Assembly: GCA_013042055.1 (NCBI GenBank)
Contig: JABDQW010000073.1
Coordinates: 1-45,007 of the forward strand
Direction: 5' to 3'
DNA length: 45,007 nucleotides
Source: Gammaproteobacteria bacterium
GTDB lineage: Bacteria; Pseudomonadota; Gammaproteobacteria; SZUA-229
In this document: one piece after another, positions 221-45,007 of the stretch
Layout of the letters: every line of letters starts with the position of its first letter
Numbering within the stretch: position 1 is the first letter of the stretch
Position numbers and translations under genes: made by a program
Notes under the pieces: model-generated
The model's input: only the letters and a program-made list of their open reading frames with translations
What the model was told of the DNA's origin: nothing
Database searches by the model: none

Positions 221-547
221 TTCTCGCAAAGGCGCCAAGGCCGCCAAGAAATCATATTTGATTGTTTCAACCTAGATTCCGCAGTTGAACACAGAATTAG
301 CGCTGCTCCTCAAGCGACAGGGCAAGACGCGACTTGCAGCTAATGGCCGTAGTCCTTGGCAAAAGTTGTAACGCCGCCATGGTGCTTGAGGGGCAGTGAT
401 AAACTGTGTAGCGACTCACCGCTTGGGTGAATGTCACATACTGTACTACTCTTCGAGAAATTATAGAGTTGAGTAGCGGTAACAGCGGTCAACTGCGGAA
501 TCTAGGTTCAATGGTTCTTCTTTGCGTGCTTCGCGTCTTTGCGAGAG
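221..547. repeat. Long imperfect inverted repeat filling the gap before mupP
   Basis: The left arm (about 221-288) begins TTCTCGCAAAGGCGCCAAGG and ends with AACCTAGATTCCGCAGTTGA. The right arm (489-547) is its reverse complement: the inner 20 bases (269-288 against 489-508) pair perfectly, and the outer part pairs imperfectly (CTCGCAAAGACGCGAAG read in reverse). Inside, GCTCCTCAAGC (about 305-317) pairs with GCTTGAGGGGC (about 382-393), so the whole gap can fold as one long palindrome. The CGCAAAG-type arm also occurs at 10088 and 30602. I see no gene here. Confidence 0.75.
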
Positions 548-4167: not shown

Positions 4168-4216
4168 ACCTGATCTTTTGGGGTTCAGCGATACAGAGAC
4201 AAGTGAAGACGATGTC

Positions 4217-4501
4217 TAGCCCGCATTTCTCATCAGGCGGCGTAGGATTCTGATAAGGCATTGGCTTCTTTGAATAAAACTTGGATGATTTAAATACATT
4301 GTGTTTTTCTAGCATGCCTATCACGGTTCAGACTAGTCTTCGTGTCCGTAAGCTTGCTCTTCACTCTAACCGTAGCTACGGCTACGCTTTTCGCTCCAGA
4401 GCGGCGCCTGCGAACACTAGCCCGCACGTTTCACCAGATGGTGAGAGATGCGGGCTCCGTCCTGCGCCTGCTCCCGTGATCCAGGTGAGAAATGCGGGCT
4501 A
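4217..4501 (+). repeat. MITE-like nested-palindrome element, copy A (285 bp)
   Basis: The element runs from TA+GCCCGCATTTCTCATC on the left to GGTGAGAAATGCGGGC+TA on the right. Inside are the family module with GCATGCCTATCACGGTTCAG, a second module with TTCGTGTCCG ... CGTAGCTACGGCTACG ... GAACAC, and a complete small pair of terminal repeats, AGCCCGCACGTTTCACC / GGTGAGAGATGCGGGCT (about 4419-4456), as if one element end pair sits inside another. It separates the LpoB-like gene from the next lipoprotein gene and ends 5 bases before that gene's ATG. No ORF of transposase type is present. Confidence 0.88.
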
Positions 4502-4506
4502 GTCCA

Positions 4507-14417: not shown

Positions 14418-14422
14418 GCTAC

Positions 14423-14898
14423 TAACCCGCATTTCTCACCAGTCGGCGTAGAAAACTAATAAGGCAATGCTCTTTTTTGGAAAAGCCAGGATGATCTTGA
14501 ATACAGAGTATTATTCGAGCACGCCTGTCACGGTTCAGGCTGGTCTATTGTACGAAGGCGGAGACACAATGTTGTGGATGAGCCGTTCTCTCAAACAGCG
14601 ACGATCAATTGAACAGGGAATTGTCCGGTAACAGTTTGTCCTATTTGGTTTTAGGAACAAGTTGGCGTCGCATCTTGAACGATCCCCCTTGATCCATAAC
14701 TAATGCCATGAATCGGCGGGCGATTGTCCAACCTGCTTAGCCAACTTGCCCCTAAAATCCAAATCCTTCGTGCAATACCCGGGCAGAGCTTGCTCTTCAC
14801 TCAAACCGTAGCTATTGCTACGCTTTTCGCTCCAGAGCGGCGCTTGCGAACACGAATCCGGCGCCTGCTCCCGTGATCCTGGCGAGAAATGCGGGCTA
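14423..14898 (+). repeat. MITE-like nested-palindrome element, copy B (476 bp, with internal insertion)
   Basis: The left end is TA+ACCCGCATTTCTCACC and the right end CTGGCGAGAAATGCGGGC+TA. The left module (to CACGGTTCAGG, 14540) and right module (from GAGCTTGCTCTTCACTC, 14785) match copies A and G. Between them lie about 240 bases absent from other copies, which contain their own inverted repeat: TTTTAGGAACAAGTTGG (14649-14665) against CCAACTTGCCCCTAAAA (14741-14757), 15 of 17 pairs. The element fills most of the cysE-iscR gap and ends 6 bases before the first IscR operator. Confidence 0.85.
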
Positions 14899-14904
14899 GT
14901 GCGA

Positions 14905-17768: not shown

Positions 17769-17805
17769 CCACTGAATCTCATTGGGCATTGCATATAAAC
17801 CCACC

Positions 17806-17993
17806 TAGCCCGCATTTCTCACCAGGCGGCGTAGGATATTTATAAGGCATTGGTCCTTCAGGAAAGCCAGGATGATCGAAAATACTGTGTGTTATTCAAG
17901 CATGCCTATCCCGGTTCAGGCTAGTCCATCTGGTGAGATAGGCGGGCTCTGTCCTGCGCCTGCTTCCGTGATCCTGATGAGAAATGCGGGCTA
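17806..17993 (+). repeat. MITE-like nested-palindrome element, copy C (188 bp), inside the isc operon
   Basis: This clean copy runs from TA+GCCCGCATTTCTCACCAG to TGATGAGAAATGCGGGC+TA. It contains the shared left module (GCGTAGGAT, AGGATGATC, GCATGCCTATC) and the right-end module GCCTGCTTCCGTGATCCTGA. An internal copy of an element end (TGGTGAGATAGGCGGGCT, about 17933-17950) lies between them. It begins 37 bases after iscA and ends 10 bases before hscB, leaving hscB without a visible Shine-Dalgarno sequence. Confidence 0.9.
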
Positions 17994-18003
17994 GTCTCAT
18001 CTG

Positions 18004-26448: not shown

Positions 26449-27627
26449 ATGAGCGTCAGTCGATCAATCGTCTTGCTGATCAGTGTGCTGTTAATCGGTG
26501 CCTGTGGCGATGAAGATAATGCCGAGCCGCCCGCAGAACTGACGGCATTTGAGCAAACGCATTTTCTGGCACTGGAGTGGTCTGTTTCTACCGATGATGA
26601 CATCGGACAACAATATATCCGTATCGAACCTCTGCTGCTAAAAGATCGTATCGTCACTGCCGGTCGCAACGGGACATTGAACGTGTACACGCTCGATGAT
26701 GGCGACGAGCTTGCCAGTATCACGCTTGACATAGCACTAAGTGGGGGTGTGGGAGGTACGGAGGATATCTGGCTGGTTGGCAGCCGGAACGGTGAACTCG
26801 TCGCGATCAGTGGGGAAAGCAACGACATTTTGTGGCGAACGGCTGTACCCAGTGAGATCCTGGCTCGACCCGTGGTCTACAATCGCAAGATTGCACTCGT
26901 ACGCACAGCAGATGGCCAGATTCTGGGTATCGACATTAAAAGCGGTAAGATCAACTGGAATTACAGTAGAACGATTCCTGCGCTAACACTCCGTGGTAGC
27001 AGTTCTCCAATACTTTCTCGAAGTCACTTCTATACGGGGCTGGAAAGTGGCCGTTTAATTGCCGTTTCTCCCATTGACGGTGAAGTCATTTGGGACGTCG
27101 CCTTGGCCGTTCCTCAAGGTCGCTCCGAGATACAACGCTTGGTCGACATCGATGGCAGCGCCGAACTGTACGGTCGTATACTTTATGCCGTTAGCTATCA
27201 TGGGCGTATTGGTGCGATCGATGTCACCCGCGGCCAGTTTTTATGGGCACGGTCATTCTCTAGCAATACCGGTGTCAGTGTTGGAACAGACGCCGTATTT
27301 AGCAGCGATGATCGCAGTCATGTATGGGCGTTGGATCGAAACAACGGTGCGACACTATGGAAGCAGGATAAATTGCAGGCACGCGGCGTGACCCGACCGG
27401 TGATCTTTCAGGATTACGTGGTCGTTGGCGATGCTCTAGGCTACCTTCACGTCATGTCGCGTTTTGACGGTCGTTTTGTTGCGCGCATCCAGGTTGATTC
27501 AGAGGGCATCCTCGTCCCTCCGATTGTGGACGGCGATAGATTGCTGGTGTTGTCGCGTGATGGCAACCTGGCGGCTTACACCCTGAAGGAAGCGGCAATG
27601 TACACCGATGAAGAACTGTTTGACTAA
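26449..27627 (+). CDS. bamB: Outer membrane protein assembly lipoprotein BamB
   Basis: BamB is a beta-propeller lipoprotein of the BAM complex that inserts outer-membrane proteins. The 392-residue protein has a signal peptide with lipobox IGAC (C19) and PQQ-like propeller blades throughout (DGDELASITLDIALSGG, SGKINWNYSRTIPALTLRGS, DGEVIWDVALA, NNGATLWKQD). The stop codon TAA (27625-27627) is itself the left edge of a MITE-like element, so the last codons are followed directly by repeat sequence; the C-terminal residues TDEELFD look normal, so no obvious truncation. Confidence 0.95.
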   Translation: MSVSRSIVLLISVLLIGACGDEDNAEPPAELTAFEQTHFLALEWSVSTDDDIGQQYIRIEPLLLKDRIVTAGRNGTLNVYTLDDGDELASITLDIALSGGVGGTEDIWLVGSRNGELVAISGESNDILWRTAVPSEILARPVVYNRKIALVRTADGQILGIDIKSGKINWNYSRTIPALTLRGSSSPILSRSHFYTGLESGRLIAVSPIDGEVIWDVALAVPQGRSEIQRLVDIDGSAELYGRILYAVSYHGRIGAIDVTRGQFLWARSFSSNTGVSVGTDAVFSSDDRSHVWALDRNNGATLWKQDKLQARGVTRPVIFQDYVVVGDALGYLHVMSRFDGRFVARIQVDSEGILVPPIVDGDRLLVLSRDGNLAAYTLKEAAMYTDEELFD

Positions 27628-27792
27628 TCCGTATTTCTCATCTAGCGACGTAGAATACTGACAGGGTATTGAATTACTGGAGAAAAGCTAGGATGATCAA
27701 AGATAAAGTGTATTATTCAAGCATGCCTATCACGGTTCAGGCGGACTCCGTCCGGCGCCTGCTCCCGTGATCCTGGTGAGAGATGCGGGCTA
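27625..27792 (+). repeat. MITE-like nested-palindrome element, copy D (168 bp, shortest complete form)
   Basis: The element runs from TA+ATCCGTATTTCTCATC (starting in the bamB stop codon) to TGGTGAGAGATGCGGGC+TA. It lacks the central module of the longer copies: CACGGTTCAGGCGGAC is followed directly by CGGCGCCTGCTCCCGTG, forming a hairpin. This suggests the longer copies arose by insertions into this hairpin loop. It ends 31 bases before der. Confidence 0.88.
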
Positions 27793-27823
27793 ACGAACAC
27801 AATGCCCGCCTGGTGCCGTTCTG

Positions 27824-29278: not shown

Positions 29279-29362
29279 GGATTTGGATTGATGAAATACA
29301 CCCGTGTATTTCACCCCTTCGGGGTCGCTTTGCGGTCCAAATCCGTTCCAGACGGATTTGTC
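29279..29362 (+). repeat. Cluster of perfect inverted repeats downstream of der
   Basis: GGATTTGGA (29279-29287) pairs with TCCAAATCC (29336-29344). Inside are TGAAATACAC-cc-GTGTATTTCA (29292-29313) and CCCC-ttc-GGGG (29314-29324). AAATCCGT-tccag-ACGGATTT (about 29340-29360) overlaps the right arm, so alternative folds are possible. A 32-codon ORF (29291-29389, MKYTRVFHPFGVALRSKSVP...) runs through it without a clear ribosome binding site. Pieces recur at 14759 (TCCAAATCCTTCGTGC) and 36769 (AAAGCGACCCC), so this is probably repeat material rather than a gene. Confidence 0.6.
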
Positions 29363-29439
29363 ATAAAGGACCTTGAGGGAGTGGAATAACCGTGTCTATT
29401 TCCGGCTGAGCATGTCTGTGCGGATTCAATGATCAGGTG

Positions 29440-29503
29440 AGGATTCGTCCATCTGATGAGAACACGTGCTGCTACACCTGCGCCTGCTCCCATGATCCTG
29501 ATG
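29440..29503 (+). repeat. Degenerate MITE-like element remnant H
   Basis: GATTCGTCCATCTGATGAG (29442-29460) followed by CGCCTGCTCCCATGATCCTG (29481-29500) matches the right half of copy C (GTCCATCTGGTGAGATAGG ... CGCCTGCTTCCGTGATCCTG). The terminal repeat itself is lost. Confidence 0.55.
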
Positions 29504-33256: not shown

Positions 33257-33260
33257 TGTT

Positions 33261-33568
33261 TAAACCGCATTTCTCACCGGGTGGCGCAGGATGCTGATTA
33301 AGCGTTTTTTTTGGAGACAATCTAGAATGTTCGAAAACACAACGTGTCGTTCACGTATGCCTGTCTCGGTTCAGGCCAGTCTTCGTTTGCGCAAAATCGT
33401 AGGGTGCGCCGTGCGCACCAGAAGAGGCCGCCAAACTGAAGATTTGAGGTGCGCACGGCGCACCCTACGGCCTCTTTACCCAGGCAGTTGCTATGGCTAC
33501 GCTTTTCGCTCCAGAGCGGCTCTTATTCCTACGCCTGCTCCCGTGCTCCTGGTAAGGCATGCGGGTTA
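33261..33568 (+). repeat. MITE-like nested-palindrome element, copy E (308 bp), with a second hairpin element inside
   Basis: Left end TA+AACCGCATTTCTCACCG, right end TGGTAAGGCATGCGGGT+TA. The family modules are recognisable (TCTCGGTTCAGGCCAGTCTT, GCTACGCTTTTCGCTCCAGA, CGCCTGCTCCCGTG). In the middle sits a perfect 22-bp inverted repeat, GTAGGGTGCGCCGTGCGCACC-type (33398-33419 with 33448-33469), absent from other copies. AAGAGGCCG (33422-33430) can also pair with CGGCCTCTT (33468-33476). The right end contains the ATG of the following gene. Confidence 0.88.
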
Positions 33569-34050
33569 AACGGTTAACTCTCGCCGTTCTGATGATGCCG
33601 CTGCTGATGCAGGCGGCATGTACCTCTGGTGGTTATCAGCGGACAGAGTCGGACCAGCTATCAGAAAAAGCGACCACGCTGGCGATGGCTAGCCAAACCT
33701 GGCAGCGGACATCCGCTTCAGCATTGCCTGCAGTTGAGGATTTGGTCCAGCGGGCCGATGCGCAGATCGCATTGCGTAATCTCGACGTCGCTTCGGAAAA
33801 GATCGAACGTGCATTGCGCATTTCACCTGATTATGCACCCGCGTGGAGCCGAATGGCTCACATTGCGCTGAATGAGGCAGATCCCGCGCGTGCAATCCAG
33901 ATGGCCAAGCGCAGTAACAGTCATGCTGGTAACGCGATCGAGTTGAAATTACTCAATTGGCAGTACATACGCGAAGCGAGTCAAATGCTGGGTGACGTCG
34001 ATGGCGTCCTCAATGCGGAAAAGTCGATCAAGATCCTAAATAGCCTCTAG
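33559..34050 (+). CDS. Small TPR-containing exported protein, probable lipoprotein
   Basis: The 163-residue protein starts at ATG 33559, which lies inside the right terminal repeat of the MITE-like element (GCATGCGGGTTAAACGG), so residues M-R-V come from repeat sequence. The next Met (residue 12) would remove the basic n-region of the signal peptide. Hydrophobic residues 8-17 lead to C21 (QAAC, imperfect lipobox). The mature part has one or two TPR motifs (AQIALRNLDVASEKIERALR, YAPAWSRMAHIALNEADPAR). Function unknown. It precedes yoaA by 19 bp. Confidence 0.78.
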   Translation: MRVKRLTLAVLMMPLLMQAACTSGGYQRTESDQLSEKATTLAMASQTWQRTSASALPAVEDLVQRADAQIALRNLDVASEKIERALRISPDYAPAWSRMAHIALNEADPARAIQMAKRSNSHAGNAIELKLLNWQYIREASQMLGDVDGVLNAEKSIKILNSL

Positions 34051-36720: not shown

Positions 36721-36727
36721 TGACGTT

Positions 36728-36817
36728 TAACCCGCATTTCTCAAGCCCTCACTTGATCTTTGAATCCACAAAGCGACCCCATCCAAATCTCTACGTAATC
36801 ATCTCGACCCCGGGTTA
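36728..36817 (+). repeat. MITE-like element end F, truncated or highly reduced
   Basis: TA+ACCCGCATTTCTCA (36728-36743) is a good left end. The following 60 bases do not match the family interior but include AAAGCGACCCC ... CCAAATC, which resembles the reverse complement of the repeat cluster at 29314-29344. A degraded right end (CCCGGG+TTA, to 36817) may be present. It lies in the tsaB-prfB gap. Confidence 0.55.
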
Positions 36818-44794: not shown

Positions 44795-44809
44795 ATGATT
44801 CAGATCGGC

Positions 44810-45007
44810 TAGCCCGCATATCTCACCAGGATCACGGGAGCAGGCGCAGGATTCGTGTTCGTAAGCGCCGCGCTGGAGCGAAAAGCGTAGCAATGGCTAC
44901 GGTTTGAGTGAAGAGCAAGCTGACGGACACGAAGACCAGCCTGAACCGTGATAGGCATGCTTGAATAACACACTGTATTCTTGATCATCCGAGCTTTTAT
45001 CCAAAAT
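44810..45007 (-). repeat. MITE-like nested-palindrome element, copy G (inverted, cut by the window edge)
   Basis: The element begins TA+GCCCGCATATCTCACC and continues CAGGATCACGGGAGCAGGCG, the reverse complement of the right end of copies A to E, then the CGTAGC/GCTACG module, then GGCATGCTTGAATAACACAC. So it is in the opposite orientation to the others. At the window edge it is still inside the left module; the far end is outside. Confidence 0.88.

Follow-up and report, generated by a model that had tools for sequence, protein, structure and literature searches.

Growth and trimming of nested MITEs in a gammaproteobacterial genome, and a hairpin apex common to MITEs with unrelated ends

Main finding

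The repeats found along a 45,007-nucleotide stretch of Gammaproteobacteria bacterium DNA (contig JABDQW010000073.1 of assembly GCA_013042055.1, hereafter the window) are a population of MITEs, i.e., non-autonomous transposons, in which the long form is the standard one. We hold it highly probable that the different sizes have been produced by insertion, by internal deletion and by the landing of new copies in the ends of old ones. Family II, family IV and GTAG-tagged REP dimers would transpose into the arms of family I, some of the resulting composites would then multiply as a unit, and family III would in turn have entered family II. Long and composite forms would be shortened to 48-190 bp, with their ends kept, by internal deletions that often run from one short direct repeat to another, as hairpin-prone DNA would lead one to expect (copy D is among the shortened forms), and new copies would settle in the CTAG that terminates older ones. 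The identity of the inserts, their solo copies, deletion footprints, microhomology at the junctions and abutting ends have each been observed, and slippage during replication is a plausible route for the deletions. The elements carry in addition a hairpin apex that recurs, nearly unaltered, in MITEs with unrelated ends, which was unexpected.

The standard form of family I

The genome of the window is a 3.55-Mb draft in 312 contigs, of which 546 kb around the listed copies (∼15%) have been read. A genome-wide search for the terminus CTAGCCCGCATTTCTCACC with up to three mismatches has given 561 matches, versus 0 for the reversed pattern used as the control. The distances between paired termini cluster at 48-89 bp (including an 84-bp class), ∼168 bp and ∼413 bp, with the dominant peak at 247-250 bp; when the pairs were listed by distance, no long autonomous element was recognised between them. 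The standard form of family I is a multi-tier hairpin of ∼248 bp (248-249) with ends CTAGCCCGCATTTCTCACC, which is built, from the outside in, of a 22-bp terminal stem, CACGG/CCGTG, CAGGC/GCCTG, TTCGTGTCCGTAAGC/GCTTACGAACACGAA and the apex CGTAGC-TATK-GCTACG. The terminal stem is paired in 97% of its cells, and the 248-nt consensus has been predicted to fold with a minimum free energy of −118.8 kcal/mol as RNA (z = −9.2 against dinucleotide shuffles) and −60.3 as DNA (z = −7.8), with 0 shuffles reaching an equally good fold in either case. Family I is thus short and bounded by terminal inverted repeats, occurs in many dispersed copies, and contains neither a transposase gene nor a protein under selection, the only long frame having a dN/dS-like ratio of 0.99. 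The copies of the window are collected in Table 1.

Table 1. Mobile elements and related features of the window
Feature	Position	Strand	Remarks
Solo family III MITE	269..509	+	80% identical to the L071 insert
Copy A: family I whose family II insert is cut to 42 bp (4417-4458)	4216..4502	+	apex core ~4368-4391
Copy B: family I carrying an inserted family IV MITE	14422..14899	+	apex core ~14804-14827
Family IV MITE within B	14548..14787	+	intact solo relatives begin (C/T)TA(A/G)CCCGGATGTTG(T/C)ACGAAGG
Copy C: composite derivative keeping CATCTGGTGAGATAGGCGGGCTCTGTCC of the family II right end	17805..17994	+	
Copy D: family I MITE, 170 bp, fitting a deletion derivative	27624..27793	+	terminal repeats and outer hairpin; apex lost
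Stop codon of ORF 26449-27627, upstream of D, which the CTAA flank of D provides	27625..27627	+	
Footprint GCGGACTCCGTCC at the D junction: right end plus flank of a family II insert since lost	27741..27753	+	12/13 match to GCGGGCTCCGTCC
Degenerate composite fragment: family II part, then family I right end	29355..29490	+	family II part 79% identical
Copy E: family I carrying a GTAG-REP dimer in its left arm	33260..33569	+	degenerate apex ~33484-33507
GTAG-tagged REP dimer in E, 70 bp	33399..33468	+	GTAG ends outward
Copy F: degenerate solo family II-like element	36727..36817	+	identified by reading
Copy G: intact long form of family I, truncated at the window end	44809..45007	-	apex core ~44881-44904

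A previous sequence-only reading had taken the TTCGTG...CGTAGC tiers of A, B, E and G for a second, inserted module with the ends TTCGTGTCC...GAACACGAA. These ends are complete in G only: A lacks the right one (GAACA is directly followed by CTAG), in B the left one is replaced by the insert of that copy, and E has neither (TTCGTTTGC, and no GAACACGAA). Since family I is a single folded object, the supposed module is its native upper stem, and the tiers belong to the multi-tier stem of the element itself. The degenerate composite at 29355-29490 was absent from that reading, and copy C was left out of its discussion.

The long form has been found across the genus, where a full-length relative of 66% identity shows the long layout with the apex, and elements of the same layout, again with the apex, occur in other genera and families; the order-level group searched consists of one family with 14 genera.

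Insertions into the arms

The longer forms contain separate mobile palindromes. Family II is a MITE of 168 bp with CTAGCCCGCATNTCTCACCAG ends, which sits after ∼nt 202 of family I in the composites of ∼413 bp, and as the full composites are 92-99% alike, the composite has been amplified as a whole. At two loci (L258, L263) older copies of family II occur by themselves, with host sequence on either side, and one listed among the solo copies (L253) lies inside family III; a further locus is nested three levels deep, with family III in family II in family I (L071). Family III, of 240 bp, has been found solo at several places, and family IV, inserted in B, is solo at L073 and L054. In E and at L073 a GTAG-REP dimer is placed at ∼nt 141 of family I; the same dimer of 70-78 bp is solo at L063 and L087 and lies within a composite at L053. 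The E insert has the properties of such dimers, namely a 21-bp unit that is paired, outward GTAG, a length of 70 bp and solo copies, and the perfect inverted pair of the GTAGGGTGCGCC type (21-22 bp) described earlier for E falls within it. The miniature end pair noticed in A has likewise been recovered, and the inverted arms reported for B as an extra 240-bp palindrome do exist at ∼14645-14760 and are part of the 240-bp family IV insert.

On the 249-nt family I, the inserts map to ∼nt 125-138 (family IV), 141 (REP dimer) and 202 (family II), and another insertion site is located at ∼nt 120 of the 168-nt family II. The apical loop of family I (nt 161-166) has received 0 inserts, the classified ones all lying in the arms, 20-40 nt off. 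At four junctions two elements share one 4-bp CTAG, from which it follows that the ends of old copies serve as targets. Two elements in host DNA (L245, L252) are chimeras bounded by a left end from family II and a right end from family I, and such mixed end pairs appear to be able to move.

The arms of family II have been seen to change together. Covariation in its hairpin amounts to 23 two-sided cells, versus 5.9 ± 2.0 after shuffling (0/500), and blocks such as AAAGCATT/AATGCTTT, AGCGCATT/AATGCGCT and AGACCATT/AATGGTCT vary jointly in copies that are otherwise >90% alike. At alignment columns 10-12/157-159 and 57-59/111-113 the blocks of both arms shift in concert. We infer a hairpin-templated correction, in which one arm would template the other.

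Short forms and the direction of change

Each short copy has been mapped to a long and a composite reference. Among these copies we have counted 26 distinct breakpoint pairs, whose positions depend on the reference sequence, and 9 of the 26 junctions show a microhomology (direct repeat) of at least 3 nt, versus 4.5% for random breakpoints; two copies with the same junction may stem from one event. Two copies (L044, L109) share a deletion between two TGCTC, and in three 84-bp copies the deletion lies between two GCGGCG. Copy D, in which the hairpin of CACGGTTCAGGCG (27731-27743) followed by CGCCTGCTCCCGTG (27756-27769) has been confirmed, is fitted best by the composite reference from which positions 118-361 have been removed. 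Its junction retains the right end and flank of an inserted family II, so that D fits a cut-down remnant of a longer element. Copy C has kept a longer piece of the family II right end than D, the footprint TCCGTCCTGCGCC of the same family is retained at L087 and L079, and L044, L109 and L075 bear stumps of the long-form arm.

The sequence-only reading had proposed the opposite course, with the short hairpin of D as the ancestral form and the longer forms grown by repeated insertion into palindrome centres. Palindromes are indeed nested up to three levels, the modules occur alone as that proposal anticipated (solo copies of families II, III, IV and of the REP dimer), and REP dimers within palindromes are on record (PMC3733652). 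Such a growth is nevertheless highly improbable, as D and other short copies bear footprints of lost inserts or stumps of the long arm, the long form is found in other genera and families, and no classified insert lies at the loop. The palindromes are real, and the entry of separate mobile palindromes into the element does give rise to longer forms, but the direction of change has been mostly the reverse of the one proposed; insertion at a loop survives as an idea only for the apex itself.

Target sites and mobilisation

The flanks of family I are of the CTAG/TTAA type (YTAR). Identical non-palindromic flank pairs have been found 6 times in direct and 0 times in inverted orientation; as the majority of flanks read CTAG/CTAG, target duplications are hard to make out. 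No PF13701 (IS1380) transposase has been detected in the genome of the window, which is 92% complete, and the same-genome transposase by which an IS1380-derived MITE is recognised is thus missing. In two relatives (G022, G045), a PF13701 transposase gene, partial in G045, adjoins an end that agrees with the local MITE terminus in 17/21 and 18/21 positions, respectively, at one end only in each case; no apex has been seen beside these two genes. Judged from the resemblance of the ends, family I has probably been moved in trans by IS1380-like transposases. IS4/IS5-type transposases have also been considered as partners: the genome contains three PF01609 genes, none of them with these ends.

Constraint, coding potential and gene placement

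In 64 full copies, nt 100-249 of family I diverge by 2-4%, versus 18% upstream, which argues that the interior is constrained at the nucleotide level. The 18% divergence is found at nt 23-69, beside the left terminus, and the remainder is at 2-4%. A frame runs through the long form and ends at a stop supplied by the terminal repeat, which would give a protein of ∼59 aa (M..SMPITVQAGLRVRKLALHSNRSYGYAFRSRAALTNTNPAPAPVILVRNAG), and the element of ∼248 bp might accordingly be regarded as a mobile mini-gene. Most full copies keep the frame open, and it had seemed conserved across lineages, uses the terminal stop in several of them and has family II inserted in frame; moreover, the 256 events include no nonsense change, against an expectation of about 5, which is the only hint that the frame codes. 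We nonetheless consider a mini-gene very unlikely, because the 179 replacement and 77 silent changes on the tree of the 64 copies correspond to a ratio to neutral expectation of 0.99, the three codon positions change equally (103/72/81), frameshifting indels are present, and the frame stops early or overruns in other lineages.

An element kept mainly for its folded transcript, i.e., a regulatory RNA or mRNA 3′ hairpin acting at gene ends, would suit the RNA fold, the low divergence of nt 100-249 and the conserved fold of the apex. It would also suit the placement of the family I copies, 0 of 101 being inside an ORF and 29 standing in sense versus 9 in antisense orientation between tandem genes (p = 0.0017) in the genome of the window. 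Against it, the orientation is 6:5 in relatives, placement at gene ends also follows from damage avoidance, and two-sided changes within family I are concentrated at a single pair (10 of 12 cells at the apex pair 158-171). Covariation within family I is in this respect weak, and RNA selection has been rejected as a conclusion to be drawn from it. We thus regard such an RNA role as rather unlikely, at a level well above that of the mini-gene, and retain the MITE population with a long standard form. Rfam has given no match over the elements. Among the stop codons that face an element, 11 of 39 overlap its own first bases, and the stop codon of the upstream gene comes in such cases from the YTAR flank, as in the window at D. 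One contig end (L194, 3233-3424) holds a long near-perfect palindrome that matches many microRNA models and is possibly an assembly fold-back.

An apex shared between lineages

In several gammaproteobacterial families the apex, AACC-RTAGC-TAYK-GCTAY-GCTTTTC, tops palindromes whose arms are unrelated. The string AACCRTAGCTAYKGCTAYGCTTTT has been found in five families of the class, in 6 of the 369 genomes sampled (control 0), and a 26-nt version in 47 stretches of the GTDB set, which are mostly gammaproteobacterial bins and further include Saprospiraceae, Pyrinomonadaceae and an Acetofilamentum-labelled bin. Among 148 Bacteroidota the apex has been seen in one, the seed genome itself, and in viral contigs in none. 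For 19 of 20 examples the predicted fold has it capping a stem, with arms that differ between lineages; in the exception (G003) the tip is predicted to form and the enclosing stem is not. The conservation of the apex in these 20 examples is partly built in, because they were found through the apex or through similarity to family I.

An independent check is provided by the MITE of a Saprospiraceae bin (G419), a 164-bp element in roughly 90 copies (L279-L308, L203, L204, L222) with ends TAGACGTTATTACGAAAA, as it can be selected by its own terminus. This search has given 189 matches (control 31), and in all 12 complete elements extracted in this way the apex occupies the middle of a palindrome of 162-164 bp. 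No terminus is common to this MITE and that of the window. Binned genomes may include stray contigs, but such an origin is argued against here by 20 copies with AT-rich arms of their own in one bin. Within this MITE family the apex is no more conserved than the arms. Rfam covariance models have found nothing over any apex at E ≤ 1.

The most likely reason for which the apex has been kept across lineages is recognition of the folded tip by a protein, as single-stranded DNA or as RNA. More tentatively, and with somewhat less than even confidence, we suggest that the apex is a portable module occupying the very centre of MITE families that come from several phyla and are otherwise unrelated. It would either have been inserted or captured at palindrome centres, or be needed so that a shared protein can recognise the folded tip.

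Relation to known systems

MITEs of prokaryotes are mobilised by IS elements and fold stably (PMC10969869), and the elements described here resemble them (e.g., QMITE2 of Coxiella) in being short, non-autonomous, multi-copy and intergenic, with terminal inverted repeats and a stable stem-loop; they differ in an interior conserved at the nucleotide level and in an apex common to MITEs with other termini. The nesting is of a known kind, since pneumococcal repeats insert into one another (PMC3049150) and REP dimers inside longer palindromes have been described (PMC3733652). The pneumococcal BOX, RUP and SPRITE share with our elements the insertion of several small repeat families into each other and the modular composites, whereas sequences and host are different and BOX grows by tandem boxB modules (PMC3049150). 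The insert of E is a GTAG-tagged REP dimer by its outward GTAG ends and 21-bp palindromic unit, but, unlike in the palindromes holding REPs on record, its host palindrome is an abundant MITE that also exists without the REP, and the REP is placed in the arm and not in the centre (PMC3733652). IS1380-family elements (PF13701) are comparable in the end matches beside the two genes in relatives, and they differ in the points given above. The palindromic elements of Rickettsia (RPE), as cited in PMC10969869, are similarly crossed by an open frame; in contrast to them, our elements lie outside host genes and show no protein-level selection.

In the literature searched, we have found neither the letters of the apex nor a description of an apex shared across MITEs with unrelated ends.

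Sizes and nesting of bacterial MITEs have, to our knowledge, usually been catalogued without direction. The footprints in one genome show growth, by MITE insertion into MITE and by amplification of composites, together with shrinkage by microhomology deletion. If the shared apex is confirmed, MITEs with unrelated ends would depend on one folded tip, which would suggest either that they have a protein partner in common or that a mobile hairpin settles in other palindromes.
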